From Pseudomonadota bacterium (GTDB taxonomy: Bacteria > Pseudomonadota > Gammaproteobacteria > Xanthomonadales > Rhodanobacteraceae), in contig JAJZET010000169.1 in the NCBI GenBank assembly GCA_021805685.1, positions 22,732-55,265 on the forward strand: a stretch of 32,534 nucleotides of DNA, given 5' to 3'. Position numbers and translations under genes: made by a program. Positions 10,943 to 32,179 of this stretch are shown here, in pieces. Every line of letters begins with the position of its first letter. Position 1 is the stretch's first letter. Below the pieces are notes generated by a model. It was not told where the DNA came from, ran no database searches, and saw only the letters and a program-made list of their open reading frames with translations.

Positions 10943-12394
10943 ATGCCCGCGACCCGCATCCGCCTGCAGACCGGCGACGACCGCATGCTGGCGCAAGGCA
11001 TCGCCGCGATCCAGCAGGAGATGAAGCTGCCGCTGGCGTTCCCGCCCGAGGTCGACGCCGAGGCGGCGCGGGCGGCTGCGCAACCGCGCTTGCCCGACCT
11101 GGATCGCAGCGATATCCCGCTGGTTACCATCGACCCGCCCGGTTCGATGGACCTGGACCAGGCGCTGCATTTCGAGCGGCGCGACGGCGGCGGCTACCGC
11201 GTGCATTACGCCATCGCCGACGTGGCCGCGTTCGTGGCGCCCGGCGGCGCGCTGGATGCCGAGGCGCAGCGCCGCGGCGAGACGCTGTACGGCGCCGATT
11301 CGCGCATTCCGCTGCATCCGGCGAGCTTGTCCGAAGGTGCCGCTTCGCTGCTGCCGGATCAGCTGCGCCCGGCCCTGCTGTGGACGATCGACCTGGATGC
11401 CGGCGGCGAGATCGGGGCCGTCGACGTGCGCCGTGCGCGCGTGAGGAGCCGCGCACGGCTCGACTACGCCGGCGTGCAGCAGCAGCTCGATGCGGGGACG
11501 GCCGATCCCTTATGGACGTTGTTGCGCGAGGTGGGCGAGTTGCGCAAGCAGCGCGAGCAGGCGCGCGGAGGCATCAACCTCGCCCTGCCCGAACAGGAAA
11601 TCAGCGTGGTGAACGGCCACTGGCGGTTGGCCTATCGTGCCAACCATCCCGACGAGGACTGGAACGCGCAGATTTCCCTGCTGACCGGCATGGCCGCGGC
11701 GCGGCTGATGGTGAAGGGCAGGATAGGCATCCTGCGCACGCTGCCGCCGCCGCAGCCGCAGGACATTGCGCGGCTCAAGCGCACCGCGCAGGCGCTGGCC
11801 GTCGCCTGGCCGGATCGCCTGGGCTATGCCGATTTCATCCGCACCCTCGACCCGTCGAAGGATGTCCACGTCGCGATGCTCACCGCGTGCACCACCGTGC
11901 TGCGCGGTGCCGCCTACGCGGCCTTCGACGGCGAGTTGCCCGCGCAGCCCATGCAGTCCGCGGTGGCGGCGGAGTATGCCCACGCCACCGCGCCGCTGCG
12001 CCGGCTGGTGGACCGCTACGTGGGCGAGGTCTGCGTCGCGCTGTGCGCGAATCAGCCGGTGCCGGACTGGGTGCGCAGCGCGCTGCCCGCGCTGCCTGAC
12101 CTGATGGCCGAGGCGGATCGCCGCGCCAAGCACTACGAACGCCAGGTAATCGACCTGATCGAGGCGGTGCTGCTGGCGCCGCGGGTCGGCGAAGCCTTCA
12201 CCGGCGCCATCGTCGAAATAAACGGCGGACACGGCAACGGCCACGAAGGCGTGGTGATGCTGCGCGATCCGGCAATCGAGGCGCGCGTCAAAGCCCCCGC
12301 GCCGCTACCGCTGGGACAGGACGTGGCGGTGCGACTGGTCGAGGCCGATCCGGTGCGGCGGCTGGTGCGTTTCGAACTGGCGACCGGCGCATGA
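10943..12394 (+). CDS. Short RNase II-family (RNB domain) exoribonuclease
   Basis: A 483-aa protein consisting almost only of an RNB domain, against about 640 aa for E. coli RNase II and about 800 for RNase R. The active-site segment is IDPPGSMDLDQAL: D64, D70 and D72 match the first three acidic residues (D201, D207, D209 of RNase II) but the fourth (D210) is Q73. The second RNB motif HATAPLRRLVDRYV (347-360) with its Arg pair is intact. The N-terminal cold-shock domains are absent or reduced to about 50 residues. The last 65 residues look beta-rich, like a degenerate S1 domain. Predicted role: 3'-5' RNA degradation in the cytoplasm, with altered metal binding. The ATG has GGAGAG 8 nt upstream. 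It is divergent from the GNAT gene. Confidence 0.85.
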   Translation: MPATRIRLQTGDDRMLAQGIAAIQQEMKLPLAFPPEVDAEAARAAAQPRLPDLDRSDIPLVTIDPPGSMDLDQALHFERRDGGGYRVHYAIADVAAFVAPGGALDAEAQRRGETLYGADSRIPLHPASLSEGAASLLPDQLRPALLWTIDLDAGGEIGAVDVRRARVRSRARLDYAGVQQQLDAGTADPLWTLLREVGELRKQREQARGGINLALPEQEISVVNGHWRLAYRANHPDEDWNAQISLLTGMAAARLMVKGRIGILRTLPPPQPQDIARLKRTAQALAVAWPDRLGYADFIRTLDPSKDVHVAMLTACTTVLRGAAYAAFDGELPAQPMQSAVAAEYAHATAPLRRLVDRYVGEVCVALCANQPVPDWVRSALPALPDLMAEADRRAKHYERQVIDLIEAVLLAPRVGEAFTGAIVEINGGHGNGHEGVVMLRDPAIEARVKAPAPLPLGQDVAVRLVEADPVRRLVRFELATGA

Positions 12395-12582
12395 CAAGGC
12401 GGCCACCATGCCGTCCTGGCGCTTCAAGTTGCCTTTGCCCTGCCGATACAGGGCCAATGCAAACCGGTGACAGGAGCATGGCGGCGGGCAACGGGCAACG
12501 GGCGGCGAAGGCGGCATCGCTTGCGCAGGCATGCACCAGCCTCGATGCTGCCGACGCGCCGGTGGTCGCGTGCGATGGGGAT

Positions 12583-15500
12583 ATGCGTGTGAGTGGATGG
12601 AGGGCGGCATGCCTGGCCGGGTTGCTCTGCTGCATGGCGGCAGTCGCGGCCGCGCCCGTGTCGGAGGCTCCGGCCGCTACGGCGCTTCCCGCGCCGACGC
12701 TTGCGCGCATCCGGGTAGCCAGCAACGACGACTATCCGCCGTTCATCTTCCTTGATGCCGATGGCAAGCCGCACGGCTACGAAGTGGACATGTGGCGGCT
12801 GTTCCAGCAGCACACCGGCATCAAGGTCGACCTGATGCTGACGGACTGGGCAGGCGCCATGCAGAACGTGGAGAGCGGTCGCGCGGACGCGATCGACATG
12901 CTCTACCGCACGCCTTCGCGTGTGGCGTCGTACGACTTCTCCGCACCGTACGTGGACCTGCCGGTGGGCATCTACGCGGATCGCCGCATCAACGGCATCC
13001 GCGACGTGGCCACGCTGCGTGGCCTGCCGGTGGGTGTACAGCGCGGCGATGCCTGCGCGGAGCGCCTGCGCGACGATGGCATCACCAACCTGCAGTTCTT
13101 CGAGAATTACCAGGACATCATGCAAGCCGCGACCAAGGGCGACTTGCGCGTGTTCTGCATGGATCAGTACCCGGCGGATTACGACCTGTACCGCTATGCG
13201 GCGTTGAACCGCTTCTACGAGGCGTTCGTGCTGTTCACCGAGCAGTCGCACTGGGCCGTGCGCAAGGGCGATACGGCGATGTTCCGGGCGATCCAGAACG
13301 GCATGGCGCGCATCACGCCGGCCGAGCGCGAGGTGTTGCGCAAGCGCTGGCTGGACCACCCGTTCGTGGCGGTGCGCTATCGACGCGCCGCGGGCATCGC
13401 GCTGGCCGTGGTGGCGCTGCTTGCGGCATTGCTGGCGCTGTGGGTGTGGACGCTGCGCCGCACCGTGGCGGCGCGCACTGCCGCGCTGCGGGCCGAGGAG
13501 GGCAAGCTGCGTGCGGTGTTCGACGCCAGCCCGGACGCGATGTGGGTGAAGGATCTGCAAGGCGTCTACCGTGACGGCAATGACCGTGCGGAGGCCTTGT
13601 TCCGCGTTCCCTGCGAGACGCCGGCAGGGCGTCGTTGCGACGAGCTGTTCGACGCGGCGTTCGCGGCCAGGATACGCGAGCTGGACCGGGAGGCGACGCG
13701 CATCGGCAGCAATGCCGTTGCCCTGCTGCCGCTCGATGCCGGCGGTGGCCATGGCCGTCAGTTCGAAGTCATCAGTGCGCCTTTGTTCACGCCGCAAGGC
13801 GAGCTCTGCGGCGTGGTCAGCGCGGCGCGCGATGTCACCGAGCGGCAGCAGGCGGAGACGCAGCTGCGGCTATGGGCGCATGCGTTCGAGAATGCCGCGT
13901 TCGGCATGTACATCTGCGATGCGCGCAGCAAGACCCTGATCTCGGCCAACGCCACCTTCGCCGCCGAGCGTGGCTACGCGGCCGAGGAGATGGCCGGCAT
14001 GTCCGTGGATGCGCTGTATCCGCCCGACTTGGTGGCCGAGCGGGCGGCGCTGCGGGCGACGGTGGAACGGATGGACCACTACGTCTGGGAAACCGAGCAC
14101 GCGGCAAAGGACGGCCGGCGTTTCCCGGTGCTGCTCGACTGCTCGGTGTTCCACGACGCCGATGGCAATGCGCAGTATGTTTTCGTCCACAGCCAGGACG
14201 TCACCGAGCGCCAGCGGGTGGACAGCGAACTGCGCCTGGCCGCCGTCGCGTTTGAGACGCAGGAGGCACTGATGGTGCTGGACGCCGACCGCGTCATCCA
14301 GCGGGTCAACCAGGCTTTTACCAGGCTTACCGGGTACCGGGCCGAAGAGGCGGTCGGGCAGTCGTCGTCGCTGCTGCGCTCGCAGCAGCACGGGCAGGAA
14401 ATCTACGACGACTTCTGGGATGCGGTACGGCGCGACCGCTACTGGCAAGGCGAACTGTGGATCCACGTCAAGCAGGGTCAGCCCAAGGTGGCGCGCATCA
14501 CGATCTCGATCGTCGCCGGGCCCGAGGGCCAACTGAAGCACTTCGTCTGTTCGATGGTCGACCTGACCGGCGAACGCGAAGCGCATGCGAGCGTCGACCA
14601 CCTGACCTATTTCGATCCGCTGACCGACCTGCCCAACCGGCGCTTCCTGCACGGCCAGCTGCAGCACCTGCTCGCCGACGAAGGCACCCATCGGTTGGGT
14701 GCGCTGCTGCTGTTTGATCTCGATCACTTCAAGCGCGTCAACGACCTGCACGGCCATGCCGCCGGCGATCGTCTGCTCGAACTGATGGCGCAGCGCCTGC
14801 GCGGCCTGCTCAACGAGGATTGTGTACTGAGCCGGTTCGGCGGCGGCACGTTTGCGCTGCTGATGCCTTGCCGTGCGGAAGGACTGCAGATGCTGGCCGA
14901 CGAGGTGCCAGGCTTCGCCGAGCACCTGCGCCAGGTGCTGCGCGAGCCGTTCCGGCTGGACGGCAACCTGCTGACCGGCATGACCATCAGCCTGGGCTGG
15001 ACCGAACTGCTGCCGGGGCGCGACTCGGCGGAGACGGTGCTCAAGCAGGCGGAGCTGGCGATGTACGCGGCCAAGGCTGCCGGACGCAACCAAATACGCC
15101 GCTTCAAGTCGGCCATGCTGGTCGAGCTGGCGCGGCGCGAACTGCTGGCCGGCGACCTGATGCATGCGATCGCCGACGAGGCGCTGGATCTTTACTTCCA
15201 GCCGCAGGTCGACCGCCGTGGTCACGTGATCGGCGCCGAGCTGCTGCTGCGCTGGACGCGTCACGACGGTACGCCGGTGTCGCCGGATGAGTTCATTTCG
15301 ATCGCTGAGGAAAACGGGTTGATCCTGCCACTGGGCGACTGGGTGTTGCGGCGGGCCTGCGTGCAGCTGTCCGCCTGGGCCCGGTGGCCGGCGGGGCGCA
15401 AGCTGTCGCTGGCAGTCAACGTGAGCGCGCGGCAATTCGCCCAGCCGGGTTTCGTCGACGACGTGCAGCGTGCGTTGGTCCTGTCCGACGCCGACCCCAC

Positions 15501-15921
15501 GCGGCTGATGCTGGAAATCACCGAGACGGCCATCATGGACGACCTTGATGCAGCTGCCGACAAGCTCGCCCGTCTGCGTGCGCTCGGCCTGCGCGTCTCG
15601 CTGGACGACTTCGGCACCGGCTATTCCTCGCTGGCCTATCTGTCGCGCCTGCCGCTGGACGAACTGAAGATTGACCAGGCCTTCGTCGCCCGGCTGCCGG
15701 AGAACCACAGTGATGCGATGGTGGCCCAGACCATCATCGCGATGGGACGCGGCCTCGACCTGCAGGTGGTCGCCGAAGGCGTGGAAACCGAAGCGCAGCG
15801 AAACTTCCTGATGTCGCAGGGCTGCGACATCTTCCAGGGCTACCTGATCGCGCGGCCGCTGCCGCTGCACGCCTTCGAGCAGATTTTTGCCGGGCCGCCG
15901 GCAAACACCGCCTCGGCGTAG
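12583..15921 (+). CDS. Periplasmic-binding-domain / triple PAS / GGDEF / EAL c-di-GMP sensor enzyme
   Basis: A 1112-aa inner-membrane signalling protein. Domains from the chosen start: signal peptide 1-24; bacterial solute-binding domain (SBP_bac_3, as in amino-acid sensors) 40-265; membrane helix 270-291; three PAS domains at about 308-420, 430-545 and 548-663; GGDEF domain 672-843; EAL domain 850-1100. The GGDEF signature is degenerate (GGGTF, 753-757), so cyclase activity is unlikely. The EAL side is complete: E886 in ELLLRW, NVSARQF, E978 in EITETAI, DDFGTGYSS, KIDQAFV and AEGVETEAQ. It probably degrades c-di-GMP in response to a periplasmic ligand. Start uncertain: ATG 12583 gives a clean signal peptide, GTG 12589 has better spacing to GGGG, and the open frame reaches 12391, overlapping the RNB gene. 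Confidence 0.9.
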   Translation: MRVSGWRAACLAGLLCCMAAVAAAPVSEAPAATALPAPTLARIRVASNDDYPPFIFLDADGKPHGYEVDMWRLFQQHTGIKVDLMLTDWAGAMQNVESGRADAIDMLYRTPSRVASYDFSAPYVDLPVGIYADRRINGIRDVATLRGLPVGVQRGDACAERLRDDGITNLQFFENYQDIMQAATKGDLRVFCMDQYPADYDLYRYAALNRFYEAFVLFTEQSHWAVRKGDTAMFRAIQNGMARITPAEREVLRKRWLDHPFVAVRYRRAAGIALAVVALLAALLALWVWTLRRTVAARTAALRAEEGKLRAVFDASPDAMWVKDLQGVYRDGNDRAEALFRVPCETPAGRRCDELFDAAFAARIRELDREATRIGSNAVALLPLDAGGGHGRQFEVISAPLFTPQGELCGVVSAARDVTERQQAETQLRLWAHAFENAAFGMYICDARSKTLISANATFAAERGYAAEEMAGMSVDALYPPDLVAERAALRATVERMDHYVWETEHAAKDGRRFPVLLDCSVFHDADGNAQYVFVHSQDVTERQRVDSELRLAAVAFETQEALMVLDADRVIQRVNQAFTRLTGYRAEEAVGQSSSLLRSQQHGQEIYDDFWDAVRRDRYWQGELWIHVKQGQPKVARITISIVAGPEGQLKHFVCSMVDLTGEREAHASVDHLTYFDPLTDLPNRRFLHGQLQHLLADEGTHRLGALLLFDLDHFKRVNDLHGHAAGDRLLELMAQRLRGLLNEDCVLSRFGGGTFALLMPCRAEGLQMLADEVPGFAEHLRQVLREPFRLDGNLLTGMTISLGWTELLPGRDSAETVLKQAELAMYAAKAAGRNQIRRFKSAMLVELARRELLAGDLMHAIADEALDLYFQPQVDRRGHVIGAELLLRWTRHDGTPVSPDEFISIAEENGLILPLGDWVLRRACVQLSAWARWPAGRKLSLAVNVSARQFAQPGFVDDVQRALVLSDADPTRLMLEITETAIMDDLDAAADKLARLRALGLRVSLDDFGTGYSSLAYLSRLPLDELKIDQAFVARLPENHSDAMVAQTIIAMGRGLDLQVVAEGVETEAQRNFLMSQGCDIFQGYLIARPLPLHAFEQIFAGPPANTASA

Positions 15922-21943: not shown

Positions 21944-23830
21944 TTGCGTAGCAGCTTGCAGGCGTTGCTGGCATGCATGGCGTTGGCCGTGCTCCCGACC
22001 CTGCGTGCGCAGAGGGCGGCGGCACCCGATCCGGCTGCGTTCGACCACTTGCTGCAACAATTGAACGACGGCACCGTCGCCCCCGACAGCGATGCGGCGG
22101 TGAAGAGGACACTGGCACAGTTGCATGCCCTGCTGCCGCCGCATGACGCGGCCCGTGAACGCAGCTATGGCTACATCTACTGCTTTCTCGCCTTCCAGAG
22201 CGACGCCAGCGGCGGCGTAGCCTACGCGAGGCGAGGCGTCGAGACGGCGCGGCAGGCCGGCGACCTGAACGCCGAGTCGAATTTCCAGATGTGCCTCGGT
22301 AATTACCTCATCCAGGCCAGCGGCGATCGCGAGGCACTGGCGAGCTTCGACGCCGCGGTGCGGACCGCGAAGCGACTGGGCGACCCTCATGTGATCGCGG
22401 ACGCGTTGACCTGGCGTGGCAGCGAGCTCTCCTTGCTGGGCGACCAGGCCAAGGCGATGATCGACCTGCTGGACGCGCAGACCGCCTACGAGAAGATCGC
22501 CAATGCCGCGGCGCCCGCGCGCGCCAACCTCGTCAACATCGCCAGCCTGTACCGGCGCATGGGCGAATACGACGATGCGGCCAATTACCTGCGCCAGGCG
22601 TTGGCGACGATCGGCCATGCCAAGGACAAGCAGCAATTGCTTGCCATCGACATGGAGCGGGGCTTCCTTGCCGGCGAGCGGGGCGAACCGGCCGCCGCGG
22701 TGGCACCGCTGCAGAAGGCGCTGGAGCTTGCGCGCGAGATCGGGCCGCCGCAAAGCGTTGGCTCGGCCCTGCTGGCGCAGGCGGAAATCAGCAACCAGCT
22801 CGGCCAGTACGACACCGCACTGCAGCAGCTCGCGGAGGCCTCCAGGATCTTCCGGTCCGTTTCGGACCACTCCAACGCCGACATGCTGGCGCTGCAGTCG
22901 GCGGAGGCGCACGCCGGGCTGGGCCAGCGCAGCCTCGCGGCACAGGAGTTCCAGGCCGCGGCAAAAGCCCTGGCCAGCAGCGGCAACCTGCGTTACCTCG
23001 CCGAACTCTATGCCGCGCGCTCGAAGAACGAGGAGGCGCTGGGCCAGACCCAGGCGGCGCTTGACGACCTCAAGCGCATGATCGCCACCAACAAGGAGCT
23101 GGAGCAGAAAACCAAGGCGCAGGTCACCACCTTGATGCGCTACCGCTTCGACACCGCGCGCCGCGACCTGGAAAACCGTCGCCTCGCCGACGAAAAGGCG
23201 TTGCAGAGCCAGCAACTGGCCTCGCTGGAAAGCGTGCGTAAATGGCAGTGGCTGGCGATCCTGCTGGGCGGCCTGCTGATGCTTGGCGTGGCCTGGCTGG
23301 CCTATCGGCAACTGCTGAAGAGCCGCCACCTGAACCGGTTGTCGCTGCTCGATCCGTTGACCGGCATCTCCAACCGGCGCCACATCGACCACCTGCTCGA
23401 GACGGCCATCGCGAGGGCAAGCCAGTCGCACGAGGAACTGACGGTGGCAATGCTGGACATCGACCATTTCAAGCATGTCAACGACGCCCACGGCCACCCG
23501 GTCGGCGACCAGGTGCTGCGCGAAACCGCCCGCCTGTGCCAGGACTCCATGCGCCAGCACGACCGCTTCGGTCGGGTCGGCGGCGAGGAGTTCCTGGTGG
23601 TGCTGCCGGGCACCGATCTCGAACACGGCGTAATGGTGGCCGAGCGCTTGCGCGCCAAGGTCGCGGCCGCCGTGTTCGCGGTCGGCGATGCACAGATCAG
23701 GATTACCGTCAGCTTGGGTGTCGCGTCGTTGCGCGCGAACGAGTCCGCCCCGGGCACGTTGGTCATGCGCGCCGACAGCGCGCTGTACCGCGCCAAGCAA
23801 ACCGGCCGGAATCGCGTCGAGTCGGCCTGA
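21944..23830 (+). CDS. TPR-repeat sensor diguanylate cyclase
   Basis: A 628-aa membrane protein: signal peptide (1-22), a periplasmic region of about 400 residues built of TPR-like helical pairs, a coiled segment, one membrane helix (about 432-455), and a C-terminal cytoplasmic GGDEF domain. The domain is complete: LTGISNRRHID, MLDIDHFKHVND with the metal-binding Asp, GGEEF at 546-550, and the inhibitory I-site RQHD (537-540) five residues before it. It should make c-di-GMP with product inhibition, tuned by a periplasmic protein or peptide partner bound to the TPRs. The start is TTG, chosen because GGAGGAGG lies 4-5 nt upstream and it opens the signal peptide; ATG at 21977 is the alternative. 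Its stop directly abuts that of the EF-G-like gene on the other strand. Confidence 0.9.
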   Translation: MRSSLQALLACMALAVLPTLRAQRAAAPDPAAFDHLLQQLNDGTVAPDSDAAVKRTLAQLHALLPPHDAARERSYGYIYCFLAFQSDASGGVAYARRGVETARQAGDLNAESNFQMCLGNYLIQASGDREALASFDAAVRTAKRLGDPHVIADALTWRGSELSLLGDQAKAMIDLLDAQTAYEKIANAAAPARANLVNIASLYRRMGEYDDAANYLRQALATIGHAKDKQQLLAIDMERGFLAGERGEPAAAVAPLQKALELAREIGPPQSVGSALLAQAEISNQLGQYDTALQQLAEASRIFRSVSDHSNADMLALQSAEAHAGLGQRSLAAQEFQAAAKALASSGNLRYLAELYAARSKNEEALGQTQAALDDLKRMIATNKELEQKTKAQVTTLMRYRFDTARRDLENRRLADEKALQSQQLASLESVRKWQWLAILLGGLLMLGVAWLAYRQLLKSRHLNRLSLLDPLTGISNRRHIDHLLETAIARASQSHEELTVAMLDIDHFKHVNDAHGHPVGDQVLRETARLCQDSMRQHDRFGRVGGEEFLVVLPGTDLEHGVMVAERLRAKVAAAVFAVGDAQIRITVSLGVASLRANESAPGTLVMRADSALYRAKQTGRNRVESA

Positions 23831-25907: not shown

Positions 25908-26176
25908 GGCATGAGCGGCGCCGCACGGAACCGCACGTGGCGGCTGACGATGGCGGGCCGTCATGGTCGTCCGGGCGCGGACGCGGGGGCGGTCATGGCG
26001 GGTGAGTTCGGCGATGTTACGTCGATGCGGGGTTAGGCTTGCGTCAAGGCCGGCGGGAACCGCCGCAAGGTATCGCGGTCTGAAAGCCGCGCCGCGCTTT
26101 CCGCCTTGCCGTGCGGGCGGGGGAGAGAGCTTCCCCCGCGTCGCCGCCCATCCGGAGCAGTCCCATCGTCCATCGC
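25871..26176. other. 306-bp divergent intergenic region
   Basis: It holds the leader hairpin of the EF-G-like gene. Nearer the TonB-like gene are two smaller hairpins: 26038-26069 (outer CTTGC/GCAAG, inner GGCGG/CCGCC) and 26117-26139 (8-bp stem GCGGGGGA/TCCCCCGC, 7-nt loop). No convincing promoter for the plus-strand gene was found. Confidence 0.5.
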
Positions 26177-27139
26177 ATGCAGGCCGACACCCGCGCCACG
26201 GCACCGACCGGCTCCCACCGGAGCGGCATGCACGCGCTCGACCACGCGACCATCGCCCGCCTGCGCCAGTTGCGCTGGCGCCAGCCGCAGCGCAACCCGC
26301 GACTGGCGTGGCTGGTGCTGGCCGTGGTCGTGCTGCTGCATGTCCTGTTCGCGGCGATGACCTGGTGGGCGATGCGACCGCCTGCCCCGGCGCAGGGCGG
26401 GCAAACCGAAGCGGCCAGCGATGTGCTCGAGGTGCGTTTCATCGCGGCGACGGCAGCGGCCGCGAAAGCGCCGCCGCCCGTGCCGCTGCCGCCGCCCACG
26501 GCGCAGCGGCCGGTACGGCGCGTCGTCGCCGAGCCCGTGTCGAAGAACGCCTTGAGCGTGCAGTTGCCCGCGCCCGCGGCCAGCGTGGCAAGGCCACCGC
26601 GCCTGTTCGACAGCAGCGGCATGCCCATCCTGCCGGCCGCCCCGGGCAGCGCACCCGTGCCGGACTACGTGCAGCACATGCCGCAGGGCGACACCCGGAT
26701 CATGCGGCACACCAACCCGGTGAAATACCGGCCCACGCGCTTCGAGAACGCCTGGCAGCAGGGCGGCGGCAGCGCCATCGACGACGCGTTGCAGAAGGTG
26801 GTGGACAAGACCACGGTGAAGCACACCTTCAACCTGGGGCATGGCATCCACATCCATTGCGGCCTATCGCTGGCCGCGCTGGCCGGCGGGTGCGGCGGCG
26901 ATCCGCCGTCGCCGCCGTCCCGCAAGGACGGCGACGTGCGCCTGGACATGCCGCCGCCCAGGCCATTGGCACCCGACCCGAACGCACCCAAGCCGCCTCC
27001 GCTGTCCCGCTGCATCGCCTTGTACCGTGCGGGCAAGCCGCTTGCCGACGGCTGCCCCAGCGACACGCCGCTGCGCGCCGTCGACCAGGAACTGCGCGAG
27101 CAGCGCGAGAAGCAGGCAAAACAGGCGGCCGGTCGCTGA
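26177..27139 (+). CDS. TonB-like proline-rich membrane protein 1, four-Cys C-terminal domain
   Basis: A 320-aa protein with TonB-like architecture: short basic cytoplasmic N-terminus, one membrane helix (43-66) carrying a His (H55), the segment LEVRFIA, a Pro/Ala-rich periplasmic stretch (about 98-163), and a C-terminal domain (163-300). The C-terminal domain matches the next gene's product: VPDYVQHMPQGDTRIM, VKYRPTRF, DKTTVKHTF, then four Cys (C228, C239, C279, C293) with CGGDPP around the second. In the helix the position four before His is Val, where TonB has Ser. It ends in a charged helix. I recognise no named family. ATG 26177 lacks a nearby ribosome site; ATG 26228 has GGAG 4 nt upstream and may be the true start (303 aa). 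The next gene starts 30 nt after the stop. Confidence 0.8.
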   Translation: MQADTRATAPTGSHRSGMHALDHATIARLRQLRWRQPQRNPRLAWLVLAVVVLLHVLFAAMTWWAMRPPAPAQGGQTEAASDVLEVRFIAATAAAAKAPPPVPLPPPTAQRPVRRVVAEPVSKNALSVQLPAPAASVARPPRLFDSSGMPILPAAPGSAPVPDYVQHMPQGDTRIMRHTNPVKYRPTRFENAWQQGGGSAIDDALQKVVDKTTVKHTFNLGHGIHIHCGLSLAALAGGCGGDPPSPPSRKDGDVRLDMPPPRPLAPDPNAPKPPPLSRCIALYRAGKPLADGCPSDTPLRAVDQELREQREKQAKQAAGR

Positions 27140-27169: not shown

Positions 27170-29104
27170 ATGCCGCTGCCCACGGATCCGAACGCGCCTC
27201 GCCCTTCCGCCCAGCGGCCGGCGCAGGTGCTGTTGAATTCCCCGCTCGCCGCCTCCTCGCGCATGCTCGGCCTGCGCGCATCGCGGCGACCGAAGCCGCG
27301 CCTGCTGTGGCGACGCGTGGTGGCGCTGGCCTGCAGCCTGCTGATCCACATCCTGTTCCTGCTCGGCTTCACGTTCGTGCCCGATTGGGAGATGCCGCCG
27401 GGCAAGGACACGCCCGCAAAGATGCAGGCCCGCTTCATCGAACTGCCTGACCTCGCCCCACCGCCGCCGCCGAAGGGCGAGCTGCCGCGTCAGGTCGGGC
27501 CGGTGCACCAGGGGCATGCCGCAGGCGCGGTGCGCGCCGCTAACCGCGTCGTGCGGCGGGCGCCGAGCGCGCCCGCCGTCGTCGCGAAGCCGGTGGCCTC
27601 GGCGACGACGCCGGCGAAGGTCACCGCGGCCCCCACCCCTCCGCCCAGCGTGCCGAGGCCGGCGCCTGTGCCCAGGTTGCAACCGGTGCCGGTCGCGAAC
27701 GCGGCGCCGCAGGTGAGCCTGTCCGCGCCCGCGTTGCGGCCGCCGGTACCGCCGGCATTCCAGCCGAAGCCCGTTCGCGCGCCGCAGCTCGAAGGCAACC
27801 AGCCGATGCTGCCGCCGCCCTCGCTGGCGCTGCCGACCGTGCAGGCGCCGGCGCAGCCCACGATCGCGCAGCCGTCGGTCGCGCTGGACCGCATGGTGCC
27901 GGATACGCAGACGCCGGCCATCGTGCAGCCCGCGCATGTGGACCTCTCCGCCGCGCCGCCCGCGCCTGAATTGCAGGCGGTGCCTCTGCCGGCACAGGTC
28001 GCGCCGCAGGTGAGCCTCCGGATGGCATTGAACGCGCCCGCGCCGAGCGTGCCGTTGTCGTTGCCGAAGCTGCAGGTGCCCGCACCGGTGCAGGCGCAGG
28101 CGCCTTCGCTCGCGGTGGTCCCGCTGTCCGCAACCGTCGCGTCCAGGCTGGCGCCTGCGGCCAAGGCCACGGTCGAGATCGCCAACGACACCTCGCTCAC
28201 CGCGATCGGCCAGCCATCGCCGGTGGCCTTGCCGCCCGCGGATAACCTGCCGACTGCCGCCGCCACGGCCAACGCCCCCGGCGATACGACGGACGTTGCC
28301 GCCGGCAAGGCTGGCGCGAGCGCCGCGGCCGACGTCAGTACGGCGCCCGACGCAAGCCCTCGGGGCAGCGACAGCGCCCGTCCCGGCGAGCCGCAGGGCA
28401 CCGGCAAGGGCCTCGAGACCGCCACCGTGCACGGCAACGGCCCGGCGACCTCGCACGGTGTCGGCAGCGCCACCCGGGGCGAGGCCGGCAAGGGTCTGGG
28501 CAAAGTGGCAGGCATGCAGCCCGGCCCCGCCAGCGCGGTCGCGCCGGCGTCAGGCGCGGAGGCGAACAAGGTGCCGGACTTCATCCAGCTCAAGCCCACC
28601 GGCGATACCGCGGTGATGAGCCATGGCATCAATGGCGTGAAGTACCGGCCGACCCGCTTCGATCCGTACTGGACGCCACCGGGCGAGAGCTCGCTGGACA
28701 CCGCGCTGCGCCACGCGGCGGAAAAGACCACGCTGCGACATACCTTCCATCTGCCGCGCGGCATCCGCATCAGGTGCGTGGTGATGCCGCTGGTGCCAGT
28801 GGCGCTGCTGGGCTGCGGCGGTGCCGATCCGCCGCCCGCGCCGGTGGCGCAGAAGGTCTACGACCACCTCAACCTGCCGGACCTGCCCGGCGGCAGCGTA
28901 CCCAGCATGCCGCCGCCCGCGCCCGCGGCGTCTGCCGCCGTTCCGGCGCGCGTCGTGCTGGACAATGCGGCGCAATGCGCTGCCGCCCGCGTCGCGGGCG
29001 GTCCGCTGCCGCCGGGATGTCCACCCACCGAGCCGGTGGTGAATGGCTACGTGCCGGCGGCTTCCTCGAGTTCGTGGGTGCCGGCCAGCGATCAGTTTCA
29101 TTGA
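27170..29104 (+). CDS. TonB-like proline-rich membrane protein 2, four-Cys C-terminal domain
   Basis: A 644-aa paralogue of the preceding protein. N-terminal cytoplasmic 1-46; membrane helix about 48-70 with S56-xxx-H60, the Ser/His motif through which TonB couples to ExbB/ExbD; MQARFIELPD; a very long Pro/Ala/Val-rich periplasmic span (about 96-330); a Gly/Thr/Asp-rich stretch (about 360-465); then the shared C-terminal domain from VPDFIQLKPTGDTAVM (468). That domain has VKYRPTRF, EKTTLRHTF and four Cys (C536, C549, C603, C617); the last pair is 14 residues apart in both paralogues. The periplasmic span is long enough to cross the periplasm. No TonB C-terminal domain motif is seen, so the outer partner is unknown. 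No exbB or exbD nearby. Confidence 0.82.
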   Translation: MPLPTDPNAPRPSAQRPAQVLLNSPLAASSRMLGLRASRRPKPRLLWRRVVALACSLLIHILFLLGFTFVPDWEMPPGKDTPAKMQARFIELPDLAPPPPPKGELPRQVGPVHQGHAAGAVRAANRVVRRAPSAPAVVAKPVASATTPAKVTAAPTPPPSVPRPAPVPRLQPVPVANAAPQVSLSAPALRPPVPPAFQPKPVRAPQLEGNQPMLPPPSLALPTVQAPAQPTIAQPSVALDRMVPDTQTPAIVQPAHVDLSAAPPAPELQAVPLPAQVAPQVSLRMALNAPAPSVPLSLPKLQVPAPVQAQAPSLAVVPLSATVASRLAPAAKATVEIANDTSLTAIGQPSPVALPPADNLPTAAATANAPGDTTDVAAGKAGASAAADVSTAPDASPRGSDSARPGEPQGTGKGLETATVHGNGPATSHGVGSATRGEAGKGLGKVAGMQPGPASAVAPASGAEANKVPDFIQLKPTGDTAVMSHGINGVKYRPTRFDPYWTPPGESSLDTALRHAAEKTTLRHTFHLPRGIRIRCVVMPLVPVALLGCGGADPPPAPVAQKVYDHLNLPDLPGGSVPSMPPPAPAASAAVPARVVLDNAAQCAAARVAGGPLPPGCPPTEPVVNGYVPAASSSSWVPASDQFH

Positions 29105-29375: not shown

Positions 29376-31646
29376 TTAAGACAGCCGCAAGAACTCCCTC
29401 ATCAGCGGCAGTCGCCGCACGCGGACTGCGCTGACGCGGAACACCGAATTGGCGAGCGCCGGGGCGGCGGTGGGCATGGCCAGGAAACTGGCGCCGGCAG
29501 GCGGGCGGCCGTCGTCGGGGACGATGATGGTTTCCACGCTGTTCGGCAGCTGGGCCATGCTGGCCAGCGGGTAGGCCTTCCAGTCGTGCTGCTGCACCTT
29601 GCCGTCCCTGGTGGTGATGGCGAGGTTGAGCGCGGTGGAAAGCGCGTCCAGCGTGGCGCCGGCGACCTGGCCTTCCAGCCCCAGCGGGTTGATCACGCGG
29701 CCGACGTCCACCGCGCAGACCACGCGCTCGATGCCGAGCTTGTCGTTCTGCAGCGAGGTTTCGATGGCGTGCGCCACGTAGGCGCCGTCCATGTGCCAGC
29801 AGGCGATGCCGAGGCCGTTGACGCTGTGCAGCCAGTCCTTCCAGTCGATGCGGTCGGCGACCAGTTGCAGCACGTTGCGCAGGCGGCCGGTATCCAGCGT
29901 GCCGCCGCCCTGCAGCGTGATGCTGCGCGGCTCGCCGAGTAGGCGTAGGCGGGTCTTCATCGGATCCTCGCGCAACTGGTGCGCGATCTCGTCGATGAAG
30001 CTCTCGGCGGCGAAGGCGTTGGCCAGGTGCGGCATGGCGCGGTGCGGGCCGCGCGGCAGGGCGGACTGCTGCGCGTACCAGTCGCTGCGGAAGTTGGGCA
30101 CCAGGCCGGCCGGCAGCTGGTCCGCCGAGACTTCCGAACTCCACAGGCGGTCGGCCGGCACGCCGCGGCCGGCGAGCGCGGAGGCGCTGGCGACGCGCTG
30201 GTTCCAGCCGGCCAGGTTGCGCTTGCGGTCGATCACGGCGTTGATCTTGTGCACGCTGGCGGGGCGATAGTAGTCGTGCGTGAAGTCCTCGCCGCGCGTC
30301 CACAGCAGGCGCACGGGCTTGTTCGCGGCCTTGGCGAGCAGCACGGCTTCGGCCACGTAGTCGTGGTCGAGGCGGCGGCCGTAGCCGCCGCCCACGCGCG
30401 GCACGCGGATCGCGATGTTCTCGGGCGCGATGCCGGTGAGCCGCTGCACCACGGCGCAGGCCTGCTGCGGCGACTGGGTGGGCACCACCAGGCTGGCCTT
30501 GTCCTTGTCGATGCGCACGAGGCAGTTCATCGGCTCGGCGCAGGCGTGCGCGAGCCAGGGCTGGTAATAGGTCGCCTCGACGCGGATCGCGGCATATTTC
30601 GATGCTTTCTCCACGTCGCCGTCGTCGCGCACGCGCGTGGTGGGCGCGGACTGGCTGTCCAGCAGCGCGGTGGCCTGCTGCTCGAGCGCGGCGCTGTTCT
30701 CGGCGGCGCTGGGGCCGGGCTTCCATTCCAGCTTGAGTTTGTCGCGGCCTTGCAAGGCTGCCCAGGTGCTCTCGGCCAGCACGGCCACGGCGGGGGCGAT
30801 CACCGTGTGGCCCGGCGGCTGGTTTGCTTCCGGCTTGAGCTGCAGCACCTTGACCACGCCCTTCACCGCCAGCGCCGGCGCGGTGTCGATGCTGGCGAGC
30901 GAGCCGTCCGGCCACGGGCAGTGCGACAGCACGGCGACCAGCGCCTCGGCCTCGTGGTGGTCGATGGCGTATTTCGCCTGGCCGGTGACGATGGCGTGCG
31001 CATCCACGTCGCCCACCGGCTTGCCGATCAGGGTGTAGCGCTGCGGCGGCTTGGGCGCCGGCGCCTGCGTGGGCAGGTCGAGCTTGCTGGCGTCGTCCAC
31101 CAGGCTGCCGTAGGTGACGCGGCGGCCGTCCGGCGCGATCACCGTGCCGGCCTCGCAGCGCAGGCGATCGGCGGCGATGCCGAGGCGGCGCGCGGCGGCC
31201 TGGGTGATCAGCCAGCGCGCCAGCGCGCCGGCCAGGCGCAGGTCGGCCCAGGCGGCGGGGATGGAGTCGCCGGTGCCGCCGCGCTGGCGGCCGTAGGTCC
31301 AGCGGGGATGGCCGTCGTTGCCGGCCTCGACGCCCAGGCCGAGGTGCACCACGCTGACGCGGTTCCAGTCCGCGTCGAGTTCGTCGGCGAGGATCATCGG
31401 CAGCGCGGTGGCGACGCCGGTGCCGGTGTCGGGATCGCGCGCGCCGATCAGCACGTTGCCTTCGGAGTCGATGCGCACATAGGCACCGAGGTCGTGGAAG
31501 TCGTTGCCCAGCCATTCCGGCGGCAAGGGTGGCTCGCCGGCCTCGGCGAAGCGCACGCCCACCACCAGCGCGCCGGCGGCACCGGCGAGGACCTGCAGGA
31601 AGCGGCGGCGCGACAGCCGGATGCCGTTCGAGGTGTTCGCGCTCAT
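29376..31646 (-). CDS. Molybdenum hydroxylase large subunit, isoquinoline-oxidoreductase beta type, atypical active site
   Basis: A 756-aa subunit of the xanthine-dehydrogenase superfamily that should hold the molybdopterin-cytosine cofactor. It has a twin-arginine signal (SRRRFLQVLAG, about 13-23), so it is probably exported folded to the periplasm with its small subunit. Typical motifs are present: HACAEPMNC, PTQSPQQA, GGGYGRRLDHDYVAEA, WTRGEDFTHDYYRP, ANAFAAESFIDE. Near the C-terminus the family motif (about GVGEPGxPPxAPAxAN) reads GASFLAMPTAAPALAN, putting Phe721 where the catalytic Glu stands, and the QxEGG motif reads QVAGA. The frame is otherwise intact. Its ATG overlaps the small-subunit stop by 4 nt (ATGA). 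Substrate unknown; activity uncertain. Confidence 0.88.
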   Translation of the reverse strand: MSANTSNGIRLSRRRFLQVLAGAAGALVVGVRFAEAGEPPLPPEWLGNDFHDLGAYVRIDSEGNVLIGARDPDTGTGVATALPMILADELDADWNRVSVVHLGLGVEAGNDGHPRWTYGRQRGGTGDSIPAAWADLRLAGALARWLITQAAARRLGIAADRLRCEAGTVIAPDGRRVTYGSLVDDASKLDLPTQAPAPKPPQRYTLIGKPVGDVDAHAIVTGQAKYAIDHHEAEALVAVLSHCPWPDGSLASIDTAPALAVKGVVKVLQLKPEANQPPGHTVIAPAVAVLAESTWAALQGRDKLKLEWKPGPSAAENSAALEQQATALLDSQSAPTTRVRDDGDVEKASKYAAIRVEATYYQPWLAHACAEPMNCLVRIDKDKASLVVPTQSPQQACAVVQRLTGIAPENIAIRVPRVGGGYGRRLDHDYVAEAVLLAKAANKPVRLLWTRGEDFTHDYYRPASVHKINAVIDRKRNLAGWNQRVASASALAGRGVPADRLWSSEVSADQLPAGLVPNFRSDWYAQQSALPRGPHRAMPHLANAFAAESFIDEIAHQLREDPMKTRLRLLGEPRSITLQGGGTLDTGRLRNVLQLVADRIDWKDWLHSVNGLGIACWHMDGAYVAHAIETSLQNDKLGIERVVCAVDVGRVINPLGLEGQVAGATLDALSTALNLAITTRDGKVQQHDWKAYPLASMAQLPNSVETIIVPDDGRPPAGASFLAMPTAAPALANSVFRVSAVRVRRLPLMREFLRLS

Positions 31647-32179
31647 GCCTGGCCCGCCTTGCCGGCGGCGGCGCGCTTGATCGCCGCGCGCACCCGGGTC
31701 TGCACGCCGCAGCGGCAGCTGTTCGGCAACTGGTCGATGTCGCCGTCGTCGGGATGCGGCTTGCGCTTGAGCAGTGCCACGCCGGCGATCAGCCAGCCCG
31801 GCGTGCAGTAGCCGCAGCCGATCGCATCCTCGTCGATGAAGGCCTGCTGCAGCGGATGCAGCGTTCCGTCCTTGGCGGCCAGGCCTTCGACCGTGGTGAT
31901 GCGCTTGTCGGCGAGCCGGTTCATCGGCTGGCCGATCGCCGAGACCGGTTTGCCGTCCACCAGCACCAGGTCGGCGCCGTTCTCGCCGTGTCCGCCGCCG
32001 TATTTGGTGCCGGTGAGCCACAGCACGTCACGCAGGTACCACAGCAGCGGCATCTGAGGGTCGCCGGTGTGCACGAAGCGCTCGCCATTGATCTCGACCG
32101 CGATGCCGCTGCGCACTGCCACGGGCGTGATGCCGCTCTCCGGGACGGCCGGTATGCCGTGGGCTTGGGCTGGCGCCAT
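31643..32179 (-). CDS. [2Fe-2S] small subunit of the molybdenum hydroxylase, first cluster lost
   Basis: A 178-aa homologue of isoquinoline-oxidoreductase alpha subunits, which pass electrons from the molybdenum centre through two [2Fe-2S] clusters. The C-terminal cluster motif is intact: GCGYCTPG (C122, C125) and SCRCG (C155, C157). The N-terminal ferredoxin-like motif, normally GTKYGCGxxxCGAC with a fourth Cys later, reads GTKYGGGHGENGAD: G62, N67, D70 and I82 replace the four Cys. These are the only four Cys in the protein. The strand pattern (VEINGER, LLWYLRDVL, LVLVDGKPV) shows the fold is kept. The ATG has GGAGGAG 7 nt upstream. It is the first gene of the two-gene operon and overlaps the large-subunit start by 4 nt. 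Confidence 0.88.
   Translation of the reverse strand: MAPAQAHGIPAVPESGITPVAVRSGIAVEINGERFVHTGDPQMPLLWYLRDVLWLTGTKYGGGHGENGADLVLVDGKPVSAIGQPMNRLADKRITTVEGLAAKDGTLHPLQQAFIDEDAIGCGYCTPGWLIAGVALLKRKPHPDDGDIDQLPNSCRCGVQTRVRAAIKRAAAGKAGQA

Follow-up and report, generated by a model that had tools for sequence, protein, structure and literature searches.

A probable cofactor-free pseudo-molybdenum hydroxylase with one [2Fe-2S] cluster in the Rhodanobacteraceae

The subject of this report is a pair of overlapping genes for the two subunits of a molybdenum hydroxylase-like heterodimer, located on the minus strand of a DNA stretch of 32,534 nucleotides (the window) from a metagenome-assembled genome (MAG) of the family Rhodanobacteraceae (assembly GCA_021805685.1, contig JAJZET010000169.1, positions 22,732 to 55,265). 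The small subunit has lost all the ligands of its ferredoxin-type [2Fe-2S] cluster, the large subunit has lost the Glu of the GxGE motif, and the genes looked for in the synthesis of the molybdenum cofactor (Moco) were not found in the genome. Judging from sequence comparisons and predicted structures, the pair is probably a Moco-free pseudo-molybdenum hydroxylase, exported by the twin-arginine translocation (Tat) system, which carries a single [2Fe-2S] cluster and has been repurposed for a non-catalytic role in the cell envelope.

The two subunits and their missing residues

The small subunit (P0002, IorA/AldH-small-like by Pfam and alignment; 31643-32179, minus strand) has 178 amino acids plus the stop codon. 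In molybdenum hydroxylases the ferredoxin-type cluster is the distal one. The loop which should bind it (residues 57-82, 31934-32011; residues 57-70 are GTKYGGGHGENGAD) aligns with GCxxGxCGAC...C of the solved relatives as GGGHGENGAD...I, with G62, N67, D70 and I82 at the canonical Cys positions and thus none of the four ligands. The ligands of the second cluster are all present, C122 and C125 in CGYC (residues 122-125, 31805-31816) and C155 and C157 in CRC (residues 155-157, 31709-31717). Pfam matches Fer2_2, the domain that carries these four Cys in the xanthine oxidase family, with 75.7 bits and finds no Fer2 domain in this protein; the NCBIfam matches, to the small subunits of 4-hydroxybenzoyl-CoA reductase, xanthine dehydrogenase and aldehyde oxidoreductase, all lie far below their cut-offs. 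The initial annotation had already described the Cys-free motif, the complete second cluster and a coupled operon, and the alignments agree with it on all three points: the small-subunit stop shares 4 bases (31643-31646) with the large-subunit start. Its coordinates were also right, the strand having been left unnamed; the plus strand at 31643-32179 holds an unrelated open reading frame.

The large subunit (IorB/AldH-large-like by Pfam and structure matches; 29376-31646, minus strand, 756 amino acids) has the MoCoBD_1/MoCoBD_2 fold of the xanthine oxidase family. As in heterodimers of the IorAB/AldH type, it starts with a Tat signal (RRRFLQ..., 31554-31616; TIGR01409, 18.4 bits against a cut-off of 16.7) and has a permuted domain order, being collinear with 8gy3_C and giving split matches to PaoC. 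The stretch GGGYGRR (residues 419-425, 30372-30392), which is GGGFGRR in the family, is retained. At residues 718-721 (29484-29495), GASF stands in place of the family motif GxGE with its catalytic Glu, and T76 (31419-31421) replaces the Gln of EMGQG found in intact relatives. The GxGE of the intact relative L086 (loci and genomes are designated here by L and G numbers) aligns with a stretch of PaoC whose Glu counts to 692, which we take to be the catalytic Glu of the xanthine oxidase family; a literature search for the catalytic role of this residue found no paper. GxGE is present in all eight plasmid-borne relatives aligned with the large subunit. In the window and 40 loci of its clade, the same column holds Phe in 40 of 41 cases and Leu in one (L013), and never Glu; L028 and L040 were left out of the alignment with the plasmid-borne relatives, and the GASF of both was seen otherwise (that of L028 via G073). 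These large-subunit changes, like the missing cofactor pathway, are not mentioned in the initial annotation. A side observation concerns L028 and L100 (a Dyella silvatica record), in which the large-subunit frame differs after PALANA and runs into an unrelated, longer C-terminus, possibly through a frameshift in one species.

Distribution, cofactor pathway and order of the losses

A scan of genome contigs gave 578 confirmed loci, the best 80 of which were kept. The best 40 (66-97% identity; titles Rhodanobacter, Dyella, Frateuria and Fulvimonas, plus two broadly named MAGs) have none of the four ferredoxin-type Cys and all four Cys of the second cluster in 40 of 40 cases, which rules out a sequencing or assembly defect or a strain oddity, the outcome that would have undone the initial annotation. 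The length of the former ligand loop varies among them, with deletions of two or three residues in L022, L023 and L042 and one insertion in L024. The next 40 loci within the best 80 (L043-L082) belong to other groups, and each of them has all eight Cys. A search across the class covered 370 genomes, gave a match at E 1e-25 in 106 of them and listed 30 loci, 28 of them outside the family (L226-L253), all with eight Cys. Among the matches listed, then, all 68 loci read outside the family are intact, and spread of the Cys-free form beyond the family is ruled out for the loci read.

Within the family, the GTDB set comprises 196 genomes, those besides the window's being at least 90% complete, and 195 of them have a small-subunit match. 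The sole genome without one, G114, also gave no MoeA and no MoCoBD_1 match, MoaC being found. The locus was read in 117 genomes including the window's (96 in a first set, 20 in a second); 78 others have a match that was left unread. A Cys-free small subunit is present in 52 of the 116 other genomes read (33/96 and 19/20), or 53 with the window; these 52 genomes overlap in species with the 40 close loci. Of the 98 rows of the tree described below, seven of which are outside references, 97 have an intact second cluster (the exception is G016), as do 20/20 genomes of the second set. One further locus, L133 (contig C46:1-6000), is another small-subunit copy in the window's own MAG, partial and 99% identical, ending at the contig edge; the frames upstream resemble by eye the S53-type protease of L039 (assigned by Pfam) and a fumarase, and the copy is probably a strain variant in the assembly.

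MoeA, MoaC and XdhC_C, the last being the domain of the XdhC chaperone encoded with IorAB/AldH systems, were not found in the window's MAG, which is 87% complete and is the genome in which XdhC_C was sought. Across the 196 family genomes, MoeA_N was not found in 45, MoaC in 46 and both in 43, namely the window's and 42 relatives, which are called Moco-less here; G006, G010, G020, G114 and G182, in which only one of the two is absent, are not counted. The host's capacity to make Moco, a further mark of the xanthine oxidase family, appears by this definition to be absent from these 43 genomes. MoaA was likewise not found in any of the 43, and was found in 6/6 Moco-making controls. Seven of the Moco-less assemblies consist of a single contig (G014, G070, G082, G085, G161, G166 and G177). 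All 43 nevertheless have the small-subunit match; MoCoBD_1 is matched exactly once in 40 and twice in three (G079, G116 and G125), a single match being also common in Moco-making genomes.

The Glu is present in none of the 43 Moco-less genomes (31 from the first set, 11 from the second, and the window's). Among genomes that are not Moco-less, it occupies the column in 26 of 60 readable members of the first set, of which G081 is not an orthologue and G004, G017 and G019 carry it in an altered motif, and in one of nine of the second set. Moco-less genomes make up 34 of the 53 Cys-free genomes read. Nine other Moco-less genomes (G029, G030, G033, G113, G116, G117, G118, G122 and G125) keep the ferredoxin-type Cys and have no Glu. 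In the genus g18, the Moco-making G119 reads GAGE and four Moco-less relatives read GAED.

A quick tree of 98 rows was built after the trait columns had been removed, and changes were counted as parsimony minima without direction. It leaves out G009, G018, G008, G010, G115, G126, the second copies G015b, G020b and G188b, and the reference L092, whose small subunit was not found in frame. The 34 Cys-free rows form one clade, with a support of 100 in the Shimodaira-Hasegawa-like approximate likelihood ratio test, and need a single change. The initial annotation had asked whether the Cys-free form is conserved and monophyletic, and on this tree it is both. At least 7 changes are needed for the Glu state and at least 16 for the Moco state. 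Every Moco-less row adjoins Glu-less rows and, except in g18, these Glu-less neighbours still have the Moco pathway, and for this reason the loss of the Glu appears to precede that of the pathway, g18 being excepted; regain of the pathway by transfer is conceivable.

Constraint, predicted folds and competing explanations

Both genes are under purifying selection. The ratio of non-synonymous to synonymous substitution rates (dN/dS, Nei-Gojobori) is 0.07-0.28 for the small and 0.07-0.24 for the large subunit in nine Moco-less pairs, some with shared members, and 0.09-0.39 and 0.07-0.38, respectively, in seven other pairs (six Moco-making and one mixed). The closest pair, the window and L003, differs by few changes in the small subunit and gives about 0.33 there, against 0.06 in the large subunit. 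A pseudogene is rejected on these values. Moreover, columns nearly invariant in intact proteins are largely kept in the Cys-free clade, 89 of 105 in the large and 32 of 50 in the small subunit (G081 being additionally left out of this comparison). The replacements fixed in all 34 Cys-free rows are Q76T, S126G, F422Y, E721F and A737R in the large subunit and C70D, W114F, Q121G and Q129W in the small one, with Q126T in 33 of 34; the other three former ferredoxin-type Cys positions are variable. Several of the replaced residues are, as we assume from related structures, contacts of Moco or part of the lining of its pocket. Since the changed columns often carry new fixed residues, the pattern speaks for repurposing rather than drift. 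The view in the initial annotation that this is not simple decay is borne out by the selection values, the full-length frames and the fixed replacements, and the combination of a lost catalytic residue with a fold and a gene kept under purifying selection is that of a pseudoenzyme.

The AlphaFold2 models predict that both folds are intact. The small-subunit model (38 rows) has a mean predicted local distance difference test (pLDDT) score of 89.5 and a predicted template modelling (TM) score of 0.82, with lower confidence (77) in the block 61-70 of the former Cys loop; the large-subunit model (22 rows) reaches 79.2 and 0.80. The best PDB matches are 1rm6_C for the small subunit (TM 0.81/0.91, with 8gy3_B at rank 8) and 8gy3_C for the large one (TM 0.79/0.82).

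On the explanation judged most probable, a heterodimer with the isoquinoline oxidoreductase/aldehyde dehydrogenase fold would work without Moco and carry out no hydroxylation. The catalytic Glu would have been lost first, several times in the family; the ferredoxin-type cluster would then have been lost once, in an ancestor of the Rhodanobacter/Dyella/Frateuria group, and the Moco pathway repeatedly, mostly among relatives already without the Glu, with g18 as a possible exception. The pair would assemble in the cytoplasm and fold around its one remaining [2Fe-2S] cluster, a structural or one-electron site, cross the membrane in the folded state by Tat and serve in the envelope as a non-catalytic ligand-binding or scaffold protein. 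Its old cofactor pocket would be re-lined by Thr76, Gly126, Tyr422, Phe721 and Arg737 of the large subunit and Phe114, Gly121, Thr126 and Trp129 of the small one, residues presumed from related structures to sit there. More broadly, we would give an even chance to the idea that the family as a whole nearly always retains a periplasmic complex whose main function is not hydroxylation, for which molybdenum chemistry is dispensable and which has become a cofactor-free binding or regulatory complex in one clade.

The only positional hint to a ligand or partner is a gene for an APC-type amino acid permease (an assignment below all curated cut-offs), found upstream on the same strand in 58 of the 96 stretches read and within 300 bases in 51. 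It occurs in 16/26 stretches with the Glu, 41/65 without it and 22/31 Moco-less ones, as would be expected if all derive from a single ancestral locus; its presence in stretches with and without the Glu led to the rejection of a chance mix of paralogues. The caveats here concern G081 and G018, whose large subunits are all distant, and G009, which has a fragment.

Several points weigh against a Moco-free, non-catalytic pair. Neither a ligand nor a partner has positive evidence in its favour, and the permease was not seen in 38 of the 96 stretches, which reach about 2.5 kb upstream, nor beside the window pair or in its nearest kin (G172, G174, G175 and G177; L003). The window's genome is an incomplete MAG, as noted above, and most of the other Moco-less genomes are drafts. 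Furthermore, 34 of the 60 readable first-set genomes that are not Moco-less also have no Glu, so the loss of the Glu needs no loss of Moco, and the Moco-less label does not apply to 19 of the 53 Cys-free genomes read. The Cys-free rows preserve GGG(Y)GRR in 33 of 34 cases (one reads GGAYGRR) and DxG in all 34, a possible sign that some ligand resembling the cofactor still binds. The tree was built quickly, and warnings of long branches were raised for its outgroup rows, which do not fall on one side of a branch. In 13 independent pairs drawn from it, the Glu differs in 0.7 on average (sign test, p = 1), a test without power because the loss of Moco is nested within the loss of the Glu; the association of the two losses is one of ordering, with no independent correlation.

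Among the alternatives, the strongest rival, which we still regard as unlikely, is that the remaining cluster acts in redox chemistry or as a sensor: the Moco site would be dead, and the second [2Fe-2S] cluster would cycle by one electron or sense redox state, oxygen or nitric oxide in the envelope. The ligands of this cluster are retained in 97 of 98 rows while the pocket residues changed, and an extra Cys at column 159 follows CRCG (CRCGC) in 28 of the 34 Cys-free rows; the window, however, has Val159, the distal cluster that linked the second one to the surface is gone, and the second cluster lies buried near the Moco site in this fold. Of the options in the initial annotation, a structural or sensory role is the one that survives. 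Its other suggestion, that electrons leave from the proximal cluster or reach another acceptor, is not supported as a first choice because such rewiring assumes that the large subunit still hydroxylates at molybdenum. The retained domain architecture and predicted fold, and the 19 Cys-free genomes that are not Moco-less, would suit an active hydroxylase with electrons leaving from the proximal cluster, but the Glu has given way to Phe (once to Leu) in every Cys-free locus read, pocket residues are replaced, and in 34 of the 53 Cys-free genomes read no Moco pathway was seen; this makes it a very unlikely explanation.

It is somewhat less improbable, though still doubtful, that the pair bears a cofactor after all, with Moco or another pterin or nucleotide reaching it by some other route and supporting chemistry without the Glu. 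The retained GGG(Y)GRR and DxG motifs would fit such a protein; against it, the replaced residues include presumed holders of Moco, and the 43 genomes, seven of which are single-contig assemblies, yielded none of three genes of the pathway. A 2018 survey (PMC6147048) also leaves room for new components of Moco biosynthesis. Decay, whether as a pseudogene in progress or an assembly artefact, is scarcely credible: the variable length of the Cys loop, the altered C-terminus of the large subunit in one species (L028/L100) and the higher small-subunit dN/dS of the window and L003 could be read in its favour, and they are opposed by full-length frames in dozens of species, by the low dN/dS of the nine Moco-less pairs and the fixed replacements, and by a match in 195 of 196 family genomes.

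Neighbouring genes and comparison with known systems

Two proline-rich proteins (26111-27139 and 27170-29104) are encoded on the plus strand, convergent with the gene pair; each shows a membrane anchor by eye and no Pfam match at E 0.01, and their relatives occur in 17 and 19 of 39 related loci, respectively. Further away, the window encodes a large sensor with SBP_bac_3, PAS, GGDEF and EAL domains (12391-15921, plus strand) and a TPR-GGDEF protein (21944-23830). None of the neighbouring genes scanned in the window could be recognised as coding for a cytochrome c.

On the broader idea of a complex retained for something other than hydroxylation, this would be a pseudoenzyme that arose repeatedly within the xanthine oxidase family. 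A label such as 'xanthine dehydrogenase family protein' is here no guide to molybdenum use or to hydroxylase activity. A natural series of intact, Glu-less, single-cluster and Moco-less forms exists within this one family; together with the missing GxGE Glu as a signature, it makes the question of molybdenum use testable in cultured Rhodanobacter and Dyella. The search found no paper on the locus or on a pseudo-molybdenum hydroxylase, most of the subscription literature lying outside it; PMC12636705, which it listed, deals with molybdenum-independent members of a different molybdoenzyme family.

Among the known systems that come close, the Gluconobacter oxydans membrane-bound aldehyde dehydrogenase (chains B and C of 8gy3) gives the best match to the large subunit, collinear over the full length (E 1.1e-51). 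It differs from the window pair in having GLGEPG at the catalytic site of 8gy3_C, where the window has GASF, and in keeping the four ferredoxin-type Cys of 8gy3_B, none of which remains in the window. The other solved relatives match the large subunit in permuted pieces. The isoquinoline 1-oxidoreductase (IorA/IorB) type, whose name presumably applies to the window pair, and the periplasmic aldehyde oxidoreductase PaoABC of E. coli (5g5g/5g5h) have a like domain content, whereas the domain order of PaoC is different and the window pair has neither the Glu nor the ferredoxin-type cluster. For the small subunit the closest fold is the gamma subunit of 4-hydroxybenzoyl-CoA reductase (1rm6_C), in which, however, the Cys of both clusters are present. 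Outside the family there is a parallel in respiratory complex I, whose NuoG subunit does without Moco; there too a molybdoenzyme scaffold has been kept, with iron-sulfur clusters, for another role, but NuoG comes from a different molybdoenzyme family, that of dimethyl sulfoxide reductase (DMSOR) rather than xanthine oxidase (XO), and differs in fold and role.

Finally, the 'orphan molybdoproteins' of the survey cited above (PMC6147048) are likewise XO-family proteins in genomes without Moco biosynthesis. The survey reports several hundred organisms with part of the molybdenum trait, above all cases in which XO- and DMSOR-family proteins are orphans because the Moco pathway is incomplete. It proposes unknown Moco components or molybdenum-independent forms as explanations, leaves undecided whether such XO-family proteins use molybdenum at all, and states that no significant feature at the sequence level marks them. 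Whether or not it includes the present genera, the proteins of the Moco-less genomes described here are marked by two such features. One is the loss of the GxGE Glu, seen in every one of the 43 genomes within a single family, and hence a candidate signature for orphan XO-family proteins, for which the survey had found none; the other is the loss of the distal cluster in 34 of the 43.

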